Source: Minwuia sp. (GTDB lineage Bacteria > Pseudomonadota > Alphaproteobacteria > Minwuiales > Minwuiaceae). Taken from it: 64,000 nucleotides of DNA. A program made the position numbers and the translations under genes. The first letter of the stretch is position 1. Each line of letters begins with the position of its first letter. The notes below the pieces were generated by a model. The model was not told the DNA's origin. It saw nothing but the letters and a program-made list of their open reading frames with translations, and did not search any database. Shown piece after piece: positions 13,855-30,963 of this stretch. Where the stretch lies: NCBI GenBank assembly GCA_029213165.1, contig JARGNO010000017.1:1-64000 (forward strand), written 5' to 3'.

Positions 13855-13921
13855 GCGTCGGCACGCTTGCCAGCCGCCTCACGTGCGTTAGATTCCCGCA
13901 GATGCATTGGGGGAGGAAACC

Positions 13922-14764
13922 ATGAAATTCGGCGTGATGATGTTTGCCACGGACTATTCGATCAGTCCGGCAAAGCTGGCTGTGGAAGCGGAAGCACGGG
14001 GCTTTGACTCCATGTGGATGCCGGAGCATTCGCATATCCCGGCCTCCCGGCTGTCACCATGGCCCGGCGGCGCTGATCTGCCGAAGCAGTATTATGACGT
14101 GATCGACCCCTTTGTTGCCCTGGCCTCCGCTGCGTCAGTCACCAGCAAGCTGCTGCTCGGCACCGGCATCTGCCTTGTGGTGCAGCGCGACCCGCTGCAA
14201 CTGGCGAAGGAAGTCGCGTCACTAGACCTGATTTCGAACGGGCGTTTCATGCTCGGCATCGGTGGTGGCTGGAACGCCGAGGAAATGGCCAACCACGGCA
14301 CCACCGACTTCAAGTCCCGCTTCAAGCTGATGCGTGAACGGGTCGAGGCCATGAAGATGATCTGGACCCAGGACAAGGCCGAGTACCACGGGGAGTTCGT
14401 GGACTTCGATCCCGTGATGACCTGGCCGAAGCCGGTGCAGAAACCCCACCCCCCGATCATTGTCGGCGGTGGCTTCCCGGTCGGCGCGAAACGCGCGATC
14501 CGCTACGGCGACGGCTGGATGCCGATCGACGGGCGCGGCTGGGACATCATGGAAAGCCTGTCGCAGTTCCGGCAGATGGCGGCCGCGGAAGGCCGCGAGC
14601 CGGACGACCTGCCCGTCAGCATCTTCGCCGCCTCCCAGAAGCCCGAACGCATCGCCACCTACCGTGACGCAGGTGTCGAGCGTCTGGTCTTCGGCCTGCC
14701 CTCCGAGGGCGAGGACAAGATCATCCCGATGCTCGACGACCTGGCGAAGCTGATGGCGGTGTGA
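13922..14764 (+). CDS. LLM-class (luciferase-like) oxidoreductase, F420-type subfamily
   Basis: 280 residues of the bacterial luciferase-like TIM-barrel family. It begins MKFGVMMFATDYSI and contains WMPEHSHIP, LLLGTGICL, GIGGGWNAEEM and the late strand PPIIVGGGFP, all usual for the F420/FMN-dependent LLM branch. Members oxidise or reduce small organic molecules with F420 or FMN. Whether this organism makes F420 cannot be judged from the window, and many proteobacterial members probably use FMN. The strong ribosome-binding site GGGGGAGG lies just before ATG 13922, which is preferred over the in-frame ATG at 13907. The gene is followed at once by a convergent toxin-like gene. Confidence 0.87.
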   Translation: MKFGVMMFATDYSISPAKLAVEAEARGFDSMWMPEHSHIPASRLSPWPGGADLPKQYYDVIDPFVALASAASVTSKLLLGTGICLVVQRDPLQLAKEVASLDLISNGRFMLGIGGGWNAEEMANHGTTDFKSRFKLMRERVEAMKMIWTQDKAEYHGEFVDFDPVMTWPKPVQKPHPPIIVGGGFPVGAKRAIRYGDGWMPIDGRGWDIMESLSQFRQMAAAEGREPDDLPVSIFAASQKPERIATYRDAGVERLVFGLPSEGEDKIIPMLDDLAKLMAV

Positions 14765-14778
14765 CGGAATTCGCCGGT

Positions 14779-15363
14779 TCAGGTCTTCAATTGGCCGTCA
14801 GGCACCCGGAAAACGCCCTTGATACAATCGTGGTTGCGAACGCAGATCTGGATATGGGTCTTGCTCGGGAAGCCCGCGTTTTCATAGGCGGGTTCACCTT
14901 CGGCGAAGACACCCTTTACGGAATCGAATGACTGCTCTCCGGAATCATCTCTGAGCCGGTGTACCGTATTGATGACCGCACAATCGAGATATCGCTGCAG
15001 CAGGTCCGCGCTGCCCTTGTTCTGCGGCAACTCCGCTTCTGCAGCTTTGGCGGCGCTCACAAGAAAATCGTATCCACGTTGCACCTGCTGAACCCCGGAA
15101 ACAGTGGTCAGATCGAGGCAAAAACCAAGATCAATGACCGCGCCCACCACTGCAGGTGAGGAGGACTCGTCTCTCCGGCCTATTTGCTCTTTGGCGAATT
15201 CCAATCCACGGCGAGGGTTCGATTCCCAGAAATATATGCCCGATCCAAGCCAGTCGAACCGGTTCTCGCTCCTCTCGAACGCATCGCCTCGTACAAGTCG
15301 CTCCGCCACAGTGTCCGTACAACCGTGATAGCCGAGTACAAATGAGGCACTCAGACGATGCAC
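14779..15363 (-). CDS. ADP-ribosyltransferase-fold protein, probable toxin of a toxin-antitoxin pair
   Basis: 194 residues from a GTG at 15363. The N-terminus has GYHGCTD (H13), then DWLGSGIYFWE (Y44), and near the C-terminus KTHIQICVRN. This H, then Y, then acidic/Q arrangement recalls DUF3990-like members of the ADP-ribosyltransferase superfamily; E155 or E157 could serve as the third residue. The start lies one base after the stop of a 61-residue gene, and the sequence has visibly lower GC than its neighbours, both usual for a mobile toxin-antitoxin pair. Enzyme activity and toxicity are inferred, not shown. No signal peptide or membrane span is evident, so a cytoplasmic target is likely. 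Confidence 0.6.
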   Translation of the reverse strand: MHRLSASFVLGYHGCTDTVAERLVRGDAFERSENRFDWLGSGIYFWESNPRRGLEFAKEQIGRRDESSSPAVVGAVIDLGFCLDLTTVSGVQQVQRGYDFLVSAAKAAEAELPQNKGSADLLQRYLDCAVINTVHRLRDDSGEQSFDSVKGVFAEGEPAYENAGFPSKTHIQICVRNHDCIKGVFRVPDGQLKT

Positions 15364-15364
15364 T

Positions 15365-15550
15365 TCAACGATAGTTCTTCGTAAGATTGCCAGTTTTGGT
15401 ATGCGTCCCTAGTCGAATCAGGAAATTCAACGCCGACTGGCGAGAGGACGTGACTTCCTTCGTAAGCTTCTCAGCGCTTGCAACAAACCTACGCGTATCG
15501 TCGGGCGTCAATTCGGTCGCAGCGAAACGTGGCTCAGGGTTCTTTGGCAT
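15365..15550 (-). CDS. Small protein, probable antitoxin of the 14779-15363 toxin
   Basis: 61 residues, charged, with a central helix-rich stretch and the C-terminal pattern ALNFLIRLGTHTKTGNLTK. The family is not one I can name, but short proteins ending this way are often encoded directly before genes of the downstream protein's type. AAGGA lies seven bases before ATG 15550. The stop is separated from the downstream GTG start by a single base, so expression is coupled. Its promoter and an overlapping perfect inverted repeat sit just upstream, as expected if it represses its own operon. An antitoxin role is inferred from position and size only. Confidence 0.55.
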   Translation of the reverse strand: MPKNPEPRFAATELTPDDTRRFVASAEKLTKEVTSSRQSALNFLIRLGTHTKTGNLTKNYR

Positions 15551-15557
15551 GATTCAG

Positions 15558-15605
15558 TCCTTGGGACGGGCAGTGCATTATGCCCGTCCCCCGGTAACAA
15601 CTCAA
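15558..15605 (-). promoter_or_regulatory. Promoter with overlapping palindromic operator for the toxin-antitoxin pair
   Basis: On the minus strand, TTGAGT (15605-15600) and CATAAT (15582-15577) are separated by 17 bases, a good sigma-70 match. A perfect 10-bp inverted repeat, GGGACGGGCA/TGCCCGTCCC (15563-15572 and 15581-15590), overlaps the -10 box and the expected start point. The -35 box overlaps the stop codon of the upstream DUF1150 gene. Autoregulation is the likely reading. The stem could also form an RNA hairpin after the DUF1150 gene, but no U-tract follows. Confidence 0.6.
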
Positions 15606-15823
15606 TGCACGTGGACCGGCTGCATCTCGTGCTGGCGGACGGCGATGAAGGCGGTTTCGCGGGTGGGGGCGACGCCGACCTGCTGGCCACTGGCAGAGAA
15701 GATGCCGAAGCCCTTCAGGCCCTGCTCGTTCTCCACCGGCTTGACGTAGGCGATCTGTGGCTGGCCAAGCTGGGCCAGGGCCTCGGGCGTGATCTTGCGG
15801 ACGGCTTCAAACGGGTCAGTCAT
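15602..15823 (-). CDS. DUF1150 family protein
   Basis: 73 residues. The sequence resembles the alphaproteobacterial DUF1150 family, with ITPEALAQLGQPQIAYVKPV in the first half and VGVAPTRETAFIAVRQHEM in the second. Its start overlaps the Hsp20 gene by eight bases, so it is translated with the small heat-shock protein and shares its RpoH promoter. This gene pair is recurrent in alphaproteobacteria. The function is unknown; a role linked to Hsp20 in the heat-shock response is inferred from the coupling. It is soluble, with no signal peptide. Confidence 0.88.
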   Translation of the reverse strand: MTDPFEAVRKITPEALAQLGQPQIAYVKPVENEQGLKGFGIFSASGQQVGVAPTRETAFIAVRQHEMQPVHVH

Positions 15824-16286
15824 GCTCAGCCTCCTTGCCGGGCGTATTGTCGATGACGGAGCGGGATCCGGTCTTGCCGGCCCTGATCCGTATGGTCTTC
15901 ACCAGTGTTTCGGGAACCGGGCGTTCCAGATCGATATGCAGCAGGCCATTGTCGAGTTGCGCGTCACGCACCTCGATCCCCTCGGCCAGCACGAAGGCGC
16001 GCTGGAACTGGCGGGTGGCAATGCCACGATGGAGGAAGATGCGCTCATCCTCATCCTCGGTCCGCCGACCGCGAATGACGAGCTGGTTCTCCTCCACGGT
16101 GACGCTGAGGTCGCCGTCGCCGAAACCCGCGACGGCCAGCGTGATGCGCAATGCATTCTCGCCGGTCTGTTCGATGTTGTAGGGCGGATAGCCATCATTG
16201 GCGGACTTCGCGACCCGGTCGAGCACACGCTCCACATGGTCGAAGCCCAGCAGGTGCGGGCTGTTGAACAGGGACATCCTGGACAT
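15816..16286 (-). CDS. Small heat-shock protein, Hsp20 family
   Basis: 156 residues with an IbpA-type N-terminus (SLFNSPHLLGFDHVERVLD) and an alpha-crystallin domain at about residues 35-130. That domain contains YNIEQTGENALRITLAVAGF, LVIRGRR and the late strand LDNGLLHIDLERPVPE. These ATP-independent chaperones hold unfolding proteins in the cytoplasm. An RpoH-type promoter lies about 95 bases upstream, and AAGGAGA precedes the start. An in-frame ATG nine bases later (16277) is an alternative start. The C-terminal tail includes a possible I-x-I/V anchor region (IRIRAGK). The gene is coupled by overlap to DUF1150 downstream. Confidence 0.93.
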   Translation of the reverse strand: MSRMSLFNSPHLLGFDHVERVLDRVAKSANDGYPPYNIEQTGENALRITLAVAGFGDGDLSVTVEENQLVIRGRRTEDEDERIFLHRGIATRQFQRAFVLAEGIEVRDAQLDNGLLHIDLERPVPETLVKTIRIRAGKTGSRSVIDNTPGKEAEHD

Positions 16287-26778: not shown

Positions 26779-28725
26779 ATGACCCTCAACATCCAGACGT
26801 TCCGCAATGCCGACCACCGGGCGGGCTGGCGGCCCGGCAACAACTCCGGCGGACTGACCCTGTTCAAGGCGCTGGGGCACCCGATAACCGCCGATCTGGC
26901 CAGGGACTGGCGGGCTGGGCTGGCTGACGCGGGCCGGATCGCGATCTACGACCCGCTTGGGGACGCGGAGACCGTGGACGTGTTTCACGACCTGGCCGGG
27001 TTGTCGCCCGTCGCCTATCTGGTGCAGCAGATCGAGCATGTGGGACGCGAGGCATTCGGCCTGACCGCACGTCCGGTGACGGAGATCGGCGACGATTTCG
27101 ACACCCTGCTGGTCACCGCCTTCGACGGCGAAGGCTTCGTGCAGCATCTGAAACACATCCTGCCGACCGGCAAGCGCATCGCGACGCTCGATCCGCTGCG
27201 GCTGCCCGCGACCATGCTTTCGCAGCCGAGGGCCTATGTGGATGCGCTGAACTTCGCCACCAACTTCGGCTTCCTGCGTGACGGCGACGGGCTGCACACA
27301 CGCATTGTCACCGCCAACTACTGGTCCGGCTACGGGGCCAAGGATCCGGCGCTCTGGTGTCGCCTGATCGGCGGCGATGGCGTGACCCTGGCGGAGTGGG
27401 AGGTGCCTCTCACCCGACCGTTCGAGACCATCACCATCGACAGCGCTGATATCCGCCAGCGTTTCGGTCTCGACGACTTCGCGGGCACCCTGTTCATGCA
27501 TGCGGTGCGCATCAGGGGGCACGAGATCGTCAAATACGCGCTGGATGTCTACGGCGACGCGGCGGAGCAGTTGAGCTGTACCCATGATGCCAATGCCTGG
27601 CCTGCTGACCTCTATGCCGGTGTGCCCGCGCCGGACGAGAACGAGGACCTGATCCTCTGGGTGCAGAACAGCCATCCGATCGAGATTCCTGCCGGTGTCA
27701 TCGGCTTCAACCTGGTCGGTGGCCAGGACGTAACCAGTTTCGACGAGAGCGTGCCACCCTTCGGGACGGTGGCGGTGAATGTCGGGGCACTGCTGCCCGA
27801 CGCCCGCTTCCCCGATCAGATCGAGCTGCAGGCCGGGCGCTACTTCGTCCGTCCGCGGTATGAGGTGATCCAGCGCGCCTCGGGCCGCCGCCGCATCGCC
27901 CATGCCAACGTGGAACGGGTTGACCTGAAGCCCGACCCCGAGATCCGCGAGAATGCCCCCCTGTTCGGCAAGGGCTACATCATGCCCCTGCCGGTGCTGC
28001 CGGTGGAGGAGTTCCAGACCTTCTGCCTGCCGACGCCCATGGCGGATACCCAGATGGAACTGCCGATCCGGGTCGATCTGATCGACGCCAATGGCACCTG
28101 CGTCGCCGAGAAGTTCCTGGGGCGGGTTGCCCGGCGCGACTCCATCGCCATCGACGTGGACGGCTGGATGAAGGAAGCGGCGGCGGAACTGCCCTCCGGC
28201 ACCGGACATGTCGAATTCCTCTACGACTTCCGCGATGGCGGTGAGGCCGATGGCTGGCTGCACGCCCTCGCGCGGATCGAGCAGCGTGCCAGCGGCCATC
28301 GCGCCGAGACCATCTTTGGCGCACACATGTTCAACATGCCGCTGATCTTCCGCGATGAGCCACAGTCCTATTCCGGCCGCCCGCCGGGCCTGTCCACCCG
28401 CCTGTTCCTGCGGCTGGGCGGCGAGACAGCGGATGCCATGTGCCACCTGCTTTATCCGGCATCCCTGCCCTGGGCGCCGGAGTCCTGCACCGACCTGAAC
28501 CTGTTCAGTGGCGCGGGCGAAATGGTGACCACACAGCGCATCGCGATCCCTTGCGGCGGTTCGAGACACTGGCGTGTGTCGGAGACCTTCGACGCCGCCG
28601 ACCTGAAGGCCGCCGGACCGGATGCCTACGTCCAGATCCGCGACACAACCTGTCGCCTGTTCGGCTTCCACGGCCTGCTCCGCCCCGGCATCGCCTTCAG
28701 CCTGGATCACATGTTCGGTTATTGA
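26779..28725 (+). CDS. Conserved-looking 648-residue protein of unknown function
   Basis: I do not recognise a family. The protein begins MTLNIQTFRNADHRAGWRPG and is soluble, without a signal peptide or membrane spans. It is rich in beta-strand-like segments, such as LILWVQNSHPIEIPAGVIGF (about residues 290-310) and RVDLIDANGTCVAEKFLGRV. It has several histidine-bearing stretches but no clear catalytic motif. Codon use and GC match the neighbours, so it is a genuine gene. It starts eight bases after the 2OG oxygenase gene and completes a three-gene operon. A role in making or modifying a surface glycan or lipid, with the oxygenase and the ELM1-type protein, is a guess from context only. Confidence 0.75.
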   Translation: MTLNIQTFRNADHRAGWRPGNNSGGLTLFKALGHPITADLARDWRAGLADAGRIAIYDPLGDAETVDVFHDLAGLSPVAYLVQQIEHVGREAFGLTARPVTEIGDDFDTLLVTAFDGEGFVQHLKHILPTGKRIATLDPLRLPATMLSQPRAYVDALNFATNFGFLRDGDGLHTRIVTANYWSGYGAKDPALWCRLIGGDGVTLAEWEVPLTRPFETITIDSADIRQRFGLDDFAGTLFMHAVRIRGHEIVKYALDVYGDAAEQLSCTHDANAWPADLYAGVPAPDENEDLILWVQNSHPIEIPAGVIGFNLVGGQDVTSFDESVPPFGTVAVNVGALLPDARFPDQIELQAGRYFVRPRYEVIQRASGRRRIAHANVERVDLKPDPEIRENAPLFGKGYIMPLPVLPVEEFQTFCLPTPMADTQMELPIRVDLIDANGTCVAEKFLGRVARRDSIAIDVDGWMKEAAAELPSGTGHVEFLYDFRDGGEADGWLHALARIEQRASGHRAETIFGAHMFNMPLIFRDEPQSYSGRPPGLSTRLFLRLGGETADAMCHLLYPASLPWAPESCTDLNLFSGAGEMVTTQRIAIPCGGSRHWRVSETFDAADLKAAGPDAYVQIRDTTCRLFGFHGLLRPGIAFSLDHMFGY

Positions 28726-28823
28726 ACCGACTGCCTGAGACCGGGTGTCATTGCCTGGTGACGAGTGAATGCCGTGATGGAAACAGCACGTCCATCACAC
28801 AGCGACAATTGATTCCTTGAATA

Positions 28824-28861
28824 GAAATTATACTTATTTGGTATTCTTTCTATATAATTTC
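28824..28861 (+). promoter_or_regulatory. AT-rich promoter/operator of brnTA
   Basis: An unusually AT-rich stretch upstream of brnT carries a 9-bp perfect inverted repeat, GAAATTATA (28824-28832) and TATAATTTC (28853-28861), and an inner ATAC/GTAT pair. The right arm contains TATAAT, a perfect -10 box eight bases before the brnT ATG, which suggests a leaderless message. BrnA is known to repress its own operon, so these arms are probable binding sites. No convincing -35 box is seen. Confidence 0.5.
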
Positions 28862-28865
28862 CGTC

Positions 28866-29129
28866 ATGGCATTCGAGTTTGATCCGGCGAAGAGCACGTC
28901 GAACAGAACCAAGCATGGCATCGATTTCGAAGCGGCCCAGGTGCTCTGGCATGATCCGTGGTTACTGGAAATTCCTGCAAACACGATAGGGGAACCGAGA
29001 TTTCTGGTCATTGGCATGATCGGGCCGCGCCACTGGTCAGCCATATGCACCCAGCGCGGCAACAATGTCCGGATCATCTCGGTGAGACGGTCTCGAAAGG
29101 AGGAGGTGAGCCTCTATGAAGACACATGA
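28866..29129 (+). CDS. brnT: BrnT-family ribonuclease toxin
   Basis: 87 residues of the BrnT family, which has a RelE-like fold and cuts RNA. Recognisable features are FEFDPAKSTSNRTKHGIDF at the N-terminus and RIISVRRSRKEEV at the C-terminus, where the basic active-site residues lie. It overlaps the brnA antitoxin gene by 14 bases, as usual for this type II toxin-antitoxin system. No ribosome-binding site precedes ATG 28866, and a TATAAT box eight bases upstream suggests a leaderless transcript. The locus is more AT-rich than its surroundings upstream of the gene, hinting at transfer. Confidence 0.9.
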   Translation: MAFEFDPAKSTSNRTKHGIDFEAAQVLWHDPWLLEIPANTIGEPRFLVIGMIGPRHWSAICTQRGNNVRIISVRRSRKEEVSLYEDT

Positions 29130-29334
29130 TTTCGACGCAAAGTTCGATGATGGTGACGACATCACTCCTGTCCTTGACCTGTCGAGAGCCAGGCGACCCA
29201 ATGACGCCACGCGGCGGGTGAATGTGGATTTTCCGGCATGGGTGGTCGATGGTCTCGACCGTGAGGCGAGACACCTCGGAGTGACACGCCAATCGCTGAT
29301 CAAGATCTGGATCGCCGACCGTCTCGGCAAATGA
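29116..29334 (+). CDS. brnA: BrnA-family antitoxin
   Basis: 72 residues. The N-terminus is acidic and flexible (DAKFDDGDDITPVLDLSRAR). The C-terminal ribbon-helix-helix domain reads RRVNVDFPAWVVDGLDREA followed by LGVTRQSLIKIWIADRLG, typical of BrnA. It neutralises BrnT and, with it, represses the operon. AAGGAGG is located about seven bases before ATG 29116, inside the brnT gene, so the antitoxin has a strong ribosome-binding site while the toxin lacks one, which would favour antitoxin excess. Confidence 0.9.
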   Translation: MKTHDFDAKFDDGDDITPVLDLSRARRPNDATRRVNVDFPAWVVDGLDREARHLGVTRQSLIKIWIADRLGK

Positions 29335-29337
29335 CAA

Positions 29338-29356
29338 ATCCCGGCAGAACCGGGAT
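29338..29356. terminator. Short hairpin between convergent brnA and the rhodanese gene
   Basis: The perfect 7-bp stem ATCCCGG/CCGGGAT has a five-base loop and lies three bases after the brnA stop and 15 before the end of the convergent rhodanese gene. Position suggests a two-way terminator, but there is no U-tract on either side, so efficiency is doubtful. Confidence 0.35.
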
Positions 29357-29370
29357 CTGGGATCTATCGA

Positions 29371-30963
29371 TCAATCGAACCGCCGGAACTCGACCAGCCC
29401 GTCGCGGTTGACCTGTTCCACCAGACCGACTTCCCAGGTCAGGTAGTCTTCCATCGCCTGCCTGACGCCGCCCTGATGGTCATAGGGCTTCCACCAGACG
29501 TCATCGGTCTCGGTCAGGGCGCGGTCGAGGCCGGTTTCCAGCGGCTGGCCTGCGGCGATCCACGCGGCGGTCCCGCCCGCGAGAACCCGGACGACCAGAT
29601 CAGGCCGGGCGGCGCGCAATTCTTGCGCGGCGTAATGCGCCAGCCGACCGTCCGGGGATGTCAGCAGGATCAGCCCGGCATGTGCCAGCGCCACCATGCT
29701 CTCCGCCAGCCGTGCACGCACCGTCCAGTATGCGCCGGGGATATGCCCCTTGCGGAAGCTCAGGCTTTCCGACAGATCGACCACCGCAGCGGGTTCCCCG
29801 GAATCGATGACGGCCTGCATCTCGGCCACCGAAAGGGTCTCGGCCTGCCGGAACAGCGCAGGCTCCGGGTCCACCGGACCAACCTCCGGTTCCGGCGGCA
29901 ATCCGGCCAATACATGCACATCCGTCCAGCCAAGCTGGATCAGCCACGAAGCGGTCATCGTGGCACGCACGCCGTCCTCGGCATCCGCCAGCACGATGCG
30001 GGCATTGCGGGTGGCGACATATTCATCTGTCGCCTGTACCAGTTGCCCGCCCGCCGCATGGCGCGCACCGGGCCAGTGCGCAGCCTCGAACTCCTGAATG
30101 GTGCGCACGTCCAGCAGATAGGTGGTGCGATCAGTCTCGGCCCGCCACCGGGCAACCGTCGCACTGTCCGTACGACGCACACCGAAGCGGTCGGCGACAT
30201 GGGCGGCGCGTTCCTTCGCGGCCTGCAGTGCCGCACCTTCCGGCATCGGCGCGTGCCCGGTTTCACCGCTGGCGCAGGTCAGCCCCGCCAGTTGCCAGCC
30301 CATGGTGCCATCCTTGAGCGCCATGACCGGGTTGGGAATGCCGGCATTGATCAGCGACTGGCTGCCGATGATGGAGCGGGTGCGGCCGGCACAATTGACG
30401 ATGACCGTGGTCTTCGGATCCGGGGCCATGGTGTGGACACGATAGACCAGTTCCGCGCCCGGACAGTCGACGCCACCGGGAATCGACATGCGGTTGAATT
30501 CCGGCATCGGACGACTGTCCAGGATCACCATGTCGGTGCCGCTGTCCTTCAGCCGCTGAAGCTCCGCGGCCTCGATACGCGGCGTGTCGTAGTGATGCTC
30601 GACGAACTCACCGAAAGCCTTGGAGGGCACATTGACGCCGGAGAAGACCTCGTAGCCCTCAGCGCGCCAGCCCGCCGTACCACCAACCAGGACGGATACA
30701 TCCGTATAGCCCAACTCGGTCAGGCGGGCAGCGGCACGCTCCGCCAGCCCCTTGTCGGACGGGCCATGGTCGGTCACCACCACAGGCACGGTCTGACGCG
30801 GCACCATGCGCAGGGCACGGAACTCCAGATGACTCAGGGGGATGCAGGCGGCGAGGAAGAGATGCTCCTTCGAGAAGGCCCCCTCCTCCCGCACGTCGAT
30901 CAGGGCGATCTCCTGCCCGTCAGTCAGGCGGGCACGTAATTCCGGTGCTGTCAGGCTCTTCAT
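29371..30963 (-). CDS. Tandem four-domain rhodanese protein
   Basis: 530 residues with four rhodanese-like domains at roughly residues 1-105, 115-235, 265-375 and 380-490. Each has the ALIDVRE/VILDSRP/YLLDVRT/AVVDLSE opening strand and a GGTAGW-like close (for example VLVGGTAGWRAEGY). Only domain 2 keeps a catalytic cysteine, C191 in VIVNCAGRTRS. Domains 1, 3 and 4 have Asp or Ser in the loop, so they are probably structural or regulatory. It transfers sulfane sulfur. ATG 30963 overlaps the stop of the upstream cupin dioxygenase by four bases. It is the last gene of a four-gene operon. Confidence 0.88.
   Translation of the reverse strand: MKSLTAPELRARLTDGQEIALIDVREEGAFSKEHLFLAACIPLSHLEFRALRMVPRQTVPVVVTDHGPSDKGLAERAAARLTELGYTDVSVLVGGTAGWRAEGYEVFSGVNVPSKAFGEFVEHHYDTPRIEAAELQRLKDSGTDMVILDSRPMPEFNRMSIPGGVDCPGAELVYRVHTMAPDPKTTVIVNCAGRTRSIIGSQSLINAGIPNPVMALKDGTMGWQLAGLTCASGETGHAPMPEGAALQAAKERAAHVADRFGVRRTDSATVARWRAETDRTTYLLDVRTIQEFEAAHWPGARHAAGGQLVQATDEYVATRNARIVLADAEDGVRATMTASWLIQLGWTDVHVLAGLPPEPEVGPVDPEPALFRQAETLSVAEMQAVIDSGEPAAVVDLSESLSFRKGHIPGAYWTVRARLAESMVALAHAGLILLTSPDGRLAHYAAQELRAARPDLVVRVLAGGTAAWIAAGQPLETGLDRALTETDDVWWKPYDHQGGVRQAMEDYLTWEVGLVEQVNRDGLVEFRRFD

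Follow-up and report, generated by a model that had tools for sequence, protein, structure and literature searches.

A two-gene cassette pairing a CmdT-related ADP-ribosyltransferase with a small predicted helical protein: a candidate toxin-antitoxin family

A compact gene pair inserted between conserved neighbors

The locus described here lies within a window of 64,000 nucleotides, which is the whole stretch of DNA that was analyzed, and comprises two open reading frames (ORFs) on the minus strand. The first (15365..15550) encodes a protein of 61 amino acids, is preceded by a Shine-Dalgarno-like AAGGA located 7 nt ahead of its ATG codon, and is considered a candidate antitoxin gene on the basis of its ORF, a family alignment, an AlphaFold2 model and its pairing. 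Its TGA codon occupies positions 15367-15365, and the single base at 15364 separates it from the GTG start codon (15363-15361) of a gene about three times as long, which encodes a protein of 194 amino acids and ends at position 14779. These coordinates confirm a preliminary description of this DNA, wherein a 61-residue gene was said to stop one base short of the GTG codon of a 194-residue gene. The larger gene (14779..15363) is a candidate toxin gene whose product is predicted to adopt an ADP-ribosyltransferase (ART) fold, as judged from its ORF, alignment, structural model, Foldseek matches and a match to the profile PD-T4-9_A. No same-strand gene follows it before a convergent gene is reached.

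Upstream of the pair is a gene (15602..15823, minus strand) for a 73-residue, presumably DUF1150-like protein, which is kept at the same place in congeners and which lies directly behind an Hsp20-type gene (15816-16286, minus strand). The convergent gene on the other side (13907..14764, plus strand) encodes what we take, by sight, to be an LLM/F420-type oxidoreductase. In four of six congeners (G001, G002, G004 and G005), these two flanking genes abut, their stop codons lying about 15-20 bp apart, and blastn alignments to congeners stop near window position 15601 and restart at about 14761-14768. Because the flanking genes are joined in four of the six congeners, we conclude that a segment of about 833 bp (14768..15600) has been cleanly inserted, and the module is best read, from these sequence comparisons, as a precise acquisition of two genes and nothing else. 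The two other congeners, G003 and G006, carry a different convergent gene at this place, and the ART gene occurs nowhere in the six genomes.

The GC content of the inserted segment is 54.9%, whereas the window averages 63.8% (s.d. 2.3), and this is the lowest value among all 833-bp stretches in the 64-kb window. Earlier impressions that the pair is less GC-rich than its neighbors and sits between unrelated genes are thus borne out, and the latter is sharpened by the direct adjoining of the same flanks in four congeners. The sole other stretch with comparably low GC content (about 55%, positions 28500-29530) covers the last part of a 648-aa ORF together with a gap poor in genes, and no module was recognized there.

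A sigma-70-like promoter match, TTGAGT-N17-CATAAT (15577..15605, minus strand), is present as previously described, and this putative promoter may drive expression of the pair. Its -35 element (TTGAGT, 15605-15600) overlaps the stop codon of the DUF1150-like gene (15602-15604), and CATAAT occupies positions 15582-15577. Positions 15563..15590 also hold a perfect inverted repeat, GGGACGGGCA / TGCCCGTCCC, with arms of 10 bp and a loop of 8 nt. When the mononucleotides of the 70-nt leader were shuffled 2000 times, one shuffle reached this arm length.

The preliminary description had presented this repeat as the operator of the module. The repeat is indeed perfect, but three features led us to reject the operator role. 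First, no consistent repeat was found in the leaders of 36 sister modules, among which L007 is an isolated case with an equivalent repeat. Second, a hairpin equivalent exists where no module is present: in both G003 and G006, TGACCGTTGCGACCGGAGGGACGG...CCGTCCC comes after the stop codon of the DUF1150 gene, and TGAGTTGTTACCGGGGGACGGG...CCCGTCCC lies at the same distance here. Third, no DNA-binding domain could be recognized in the model of the 61-residue protein. Because the hairpin has a counterpart in module-free congeners and none that is consistent among sister modules, it most likely belongs to the hsp20-DUF1150 gene pair, at its 3′ end. Likewise, classical autoregulation is unsupported, since the small protein has no recognizable DNA-binding domain and the putative operator is not conserved. 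The GGGACGG...CCGTCCC hairpin, which lacks a T-run, stands in congeners (L076 and L077) with the same spacing behind hsp20-DUF1150 and ahead of an unrelated downstream gene, and perhaps serves as a bidirectional terminator or an RNA stability element.

Fold and active site of the 194-residue protein

The 194-residue sequence alone has no match in Pfam, NCBIfam or PDB sequences, and searches of PDB chains with either the single sequence or a profile returned chance matches and no ART. Furthermore, no family member is matched by NCBIfam, and none matches a macrodomain or NADAR family. The Pfam PARP family is detected in some Bacillota relatives with E-values of up to 5.7e-6, just under the Pfam cut-off, and the protein matches the profile of an unannotated phage family, PHROG 14664, over its full length (E 1.3e-18).

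The AlphaFold2 model (pLDDT 89.5, pTM 0.83) retrieves almost exclusively ARTs from the PDB with Foldseek, including exotoxin A domain III, 6kyf (which we take to be the anti-CRISPR ART AcrIF11), many PARPs, ParT, NatT and Tpt1. Ranked first is a 1071-residue cyanophage ejectosome protein, and the best ART match has an E-value of 6.5e-3 and a probability of 0.98. These E-values are individually modest (6e-4 to 0.1), and the weight of the result rests on the consistency of the fold.

An alignment of 26 ART sequences spanning five phyla yields a set of invariant residues: H13, G14, W38-L39-G40, G42, Y44-F45-W46-E47, E155, H170 and Q172. Among these, H13 resides in the GYHGC motif, Y44 in GIYFWE and Q172 in HIQICV. 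The H...Y pattern and the ART fold had both been proposed from the letters alone, and both are now supported by the invariance of H13 and Y44, the model and its structural matches, and the PARP similarity of some relatives. The third catalytic residue is probably Q172 or E155. The location of Q172 in the strand formed by residues 166-175 fits the expected place of this residue, in the strand before the last, and E155 and H170 are likewise invariant. The 194-residue protein is almost certainly an ADP-ribosyltransferase.

In a Foldseek comparison with viral models, the named proteins that match best are of the ART-PolyVal type, whose ART domains belong to phage polyvalent proteins. This raises the prospect that the ART is an effector of this type delivered by a phage or plasmid, with the small protein shielding the producing cell. 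However, ART-PolyVal is often one domain of a large injected protein, whereas the ART described here is free-standing, 194 residues long and has no delivery domains, and its partner gene precedes it and would be translated first. We know of no small paired gene for ART-PolyVal. A delivered effector therefore strikes us as highly improbable.

The 61-residue partner and its pairing with the ART gene

The AlphaFold2 model of the 61-residue protein (pLDDT 86) contains two helices (residues 16-33 and 37-47) followed by an extended tail, and alignment of the family yields the conserved C-terminal tail consensus S.E.A..FL...GI.T..G.L...Y. No corresponding family was found in Pfam, NCBIfam or PADLOC, in agreement with the earlier remark that the antitoxin could not be assigned to a characterized family; the Pfam matches are scattered and attributable to chance, and the match to PHROGs is also at chance level (E 0.14). 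By sequence, the protein is a member of a new family with two predicted helices that is practically confined to sites beside this ART. A long N-terminal extension precedes the antitoxin core in L045, L049, L053, L055, L060 and L119, several of which share an SGR.V..SLADP-like motif, and in L119 the antitoxin end is untypical.

DarTG also combines an ART toxin with an adjacent antitoxin, but DarG removes ADP-ribose by means of a macrodomain or NADAR enzyme (PMC11833690), and 61 residues are far too few for such an enzyme. ParST, NatRT and other RES-type systems are two-gene operons with ART-fold toxins, and ParT and NatT are among the fold matches noted above. RES toxins, however, have helix-turn-helix (Xre-type) antitoxins as partners (PMC9503650), to which the 61-residue protein bears no resemblance, and the active-site motifs of RES toxins are not those of H-Y-[E/D/Q]. 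Type II toxin-antitoxin systems share the compact two-gene operon, the abutting genes and the obligate pairing across genomes, but the DNA-binding antitoxin domain and conserved operator that are usual (not universal) in such systems were not encountered here.

The pairing is strongly conserved across genomes, and the module thereby passes a check set in the preliminary description, which had named a lack of such pairing as grounds for refutation. A single genome scan yielded 29 related ART loci (38-62% identity) from Pseudomonadota, Acidobacteriota, Bacteroidota, Bacillota, Spirochaetota, an Opitutaceae and an Aminicenantes bin. At 28 of these, all except L029, a small ORF has its end near the start of the matched ART frame, anywhere from 36 nt ahead of that start to 11 nt beyond it, and the partner in L028 is divergent and lacks the first helix. 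We trained a partner profile on 27 of these first 29 loci and ran it over 6850 ORFs of other loci. Among 40 related ART loci on viral contigs, which include a few near-identical contigs, 35 have a partner match (E<0.01); all are adjacent to the ART gene, with 33 in the antitoxin-toxin order and two in the reverse order, and zero matches lie away from an ART gene. Three of the remaining five loci (L063, L064 and L067) carry recognizable but divergent partners. The reverse search gave the same picture: in 142 Alphaproteobacteria genomes the profile matched six, five of which are the five ART carriers, with the match adjacent to the ART gene. The Fisher p for this co-occurrence is about 1e-8, with two genome samples treated as one. 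An orphan partner match in G096, to a DUF502-like membrane protein, was rejected as another pairing, being weak and attributable to chance. No recurrent third gene was found in module neighborhoods; further ORFs that do recur there are either shadows on the strand opposite the ART gene or genes common to a few related elements.

The ART gene also appears on 66 plasmid records, 42 of which are conjugative or mobilizable, and plasmid-borne modules adjoin replication, partition or tra genes. This mobility favors a maintenance (addiction) function, wherein the module would stabilize plasmids, prophages or islands with no specific phage trigger, and the isolated position of the window module in a chromosome is often seen for modules of this type. 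A role in maintenance is not exclusive of defense, though, and the chromosomal copy here has no obvious thing to stabilize. It would be compatible with a toxin-antitoxin system, and we give it a chance falling a little short of even. The plasmid records that we inspected either label both genes 'hypothetical protein' or leave the small gene unannotated. Searches of open-access literature turned up no published description of the module, although one may exist elsewhere.

Some representatives are damaged, and the damage falls on the ART side. The ART gene carries an in-frame stop in L021, L024 and L101, each with an intact partner, and in L029 the partner is lost and the ART is truncated before its C-terminal catalytic strand. 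Thus the ART is broken in all four damaged loci and the small gene is intact in three, and the opposite case, an intact ART with a partner that is clearly broken, was not seen among the loci examined. This pattern fits a toxin-antitoxin module but is suggestive only, because it rests on four cases and genes that differ threefold in length, and some of the stops are possibly sequencing errors. Some ARTs, such as DraT, are regulators, and so the pair might instead consist of a regulatory ADP-ribosyltransferase and a small activator or specificity subunit that act on a host protein or small molecule. We consider this improbable, since the patchy spread of the ART gene (5 of 96 genomes scanned and none of the six congeners), its carriage on mobile elements, the abutting genes and the ART-side decay fit a toxin-antitoxin module better.

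Kinship with CmdTAC and proposed function

The nearest named protein to the 194-residue ART is, by sequence comparison, CmdT of the anti-phage system CmdTAC, a relationship that the preliminary description had not noticed. CmdTAC, formerly PD-T4-9, is a toxin-antitoxin-chaperone system whose toxin is an mRNA ADP-ribosyltransferase with an HY-[E,D,Q] triad, in which Y41 is essential (PMC11618068). Of the 26 aligned members of the present family, 25 match PD-T4-9_A, the PADLOC profile for CmdT, with a best E-value of 2.3e-9, and the window protein matches the CmdT profile with an E-value of 4.6e-4. A search of 398 genomes of the phylum with PD-T4-9_A recovered one true CmdT-type locus (E 1e-81), in which the toxin gene is followed by an ORF at the CmdA position and then by a SecB-size ORF; the weak matches belong to the present family as judged by its own profile. 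Comparison of the family with the true CmdT homologue by hhalign gives an E-value of 6e-9, and the two share the GYHGC/GFHTC and GIYFW/GFYFW motifs. By eye, RQQMCV of the homologue approximates HIQICV here, a resemblance to which we give no weight, and the automatic alignment of the C-terminal half is unreliable. These sequence data indicate that the family is homologous to CmdT and forms a separate subfamily. A match to the CmdT profile PDLC04069 in a control genome, that of Methanocaldococcus jannaschii, suggests that CmdT-like ARTs extend into archaea.

The two systems resemble each other in their homologous toxins and in the presence of a helix pair in the small partner, as CmdA consists of a pair of N-terminal helices and an unstructured tail, helps CmdT to fold and is required for CmdT accumulation (PMC11618068). 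They differ in that CmdTAC has three genes, including one for the SecB-like chaperone CmdC, whereas the module described here has two genes and no chaperone: when 67 neighborhoods were searched by phmmer for relatives of a CmdC candidate, there were no matches. Moreover, the T-A-C order of CmdTAC is replaced in nearly all loci by one in which the antitoxin gene comes first, and hhalign of the partner against one CmdA candidate gives a probability of 0.2%, although a single sequence makes this a weak test.

An abortive infection system akin to CmdTAC, in which the small protein would be antitoxin, folding helper and sensor and infection would free the ART to act on mRNA, is compatible with a toxin-antitoxin module. 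This prospect is encouraged by the kinship with CmdT, the CmdA-like helix pair and tail, and the many relatives on viral contigs. Yet there is neither a CmdC-like gene nearby nor a recurrent third gene, homology to the CmdA candidate is undetectable, the gene order is usually A-T, and the plasmid-backbone settings fit stabilization equally well. We regard it as a possibility with a chance distinctly short of even.

Taken together, the fold, the invariant active site, the obligate pairing, the mobility and the CmdT kinship make it likely, in our judgment, that this is a horizontally acquired, type-II-like toxin-antitoxin module, in which an H-Y-[E/D/Q] ART is blocked by a 61-residue protein. 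In the mechanism we propose for this module, the ART, of the diphtheria toxin/PARP-like clade, would spend NAD+ to modify an essential intracellular target. Because CmdT is the nearest relative, our first guess for this target is single-stranded RNA (mRNA). CmdT modifies the N6 position of adenine in GA of single-stranded RNA (PMC11618068), and this target is not transferable because the similarity lies mostly within the N-terminal NAD-binding half. The 61-residue protein, translated just ahead of the ART, would bind and block it, probably through its helix pair and conserved tail, and this tiny helical partner probably keeps the ART in check. Antitoxin loss, either when the element is lost or through degradation under attack, would free the ART and stop growth.

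As judged from sequence, this candidate toxin-antitoxin family is a chaperone-less, two-gene relative of CmdT with an undescribed antitoxin family, borne as a small mobile cassette across many phyla, plasmids and phage-like contigs. ART modification of mRNA as a defense was reported only in 2024, and the antitoxin with which CmdT works depends on a chaperone; a two-gene relative that is common yet unannotated would widen the class of mRNA-modifying ARTs and would provide a simpler system for learning how a tiny protein silences an ART. We also raise a bolder, rather unlikely proposal: that modules of this type represent multi-phylum, chaperone-independent CmdT-like systems in which a helix-pair protein of about 50 residues alone replaces CmdA and CmdC, neutralizing the ART and perhaps also assisting its folding and detecting infection, and in which the ART modifies RNA. 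With the pairing profile the family is easily recognized, two RefSeq 'hypothetical proteins' could be annotated in many genomes, and the toxin claim is directly testable.

Several loci depart from the common arrangement. In L059 (1475-2234), L067, L068 (4962-5741) and possibly L066, the small gene stands behind the ART gene, which is the order of CmdTAC, and the pairing is kept despite the reversed order in L059 and L068. L059 lies directly behind a phage-type integrase. The viral contigs that carry the pair at L035, L046, L047, L052 and L056 are similar to one another and apparently represent related mobile elements: a small helix-turn-helix-like gene is common to them, and some also have a ParB-like gene.
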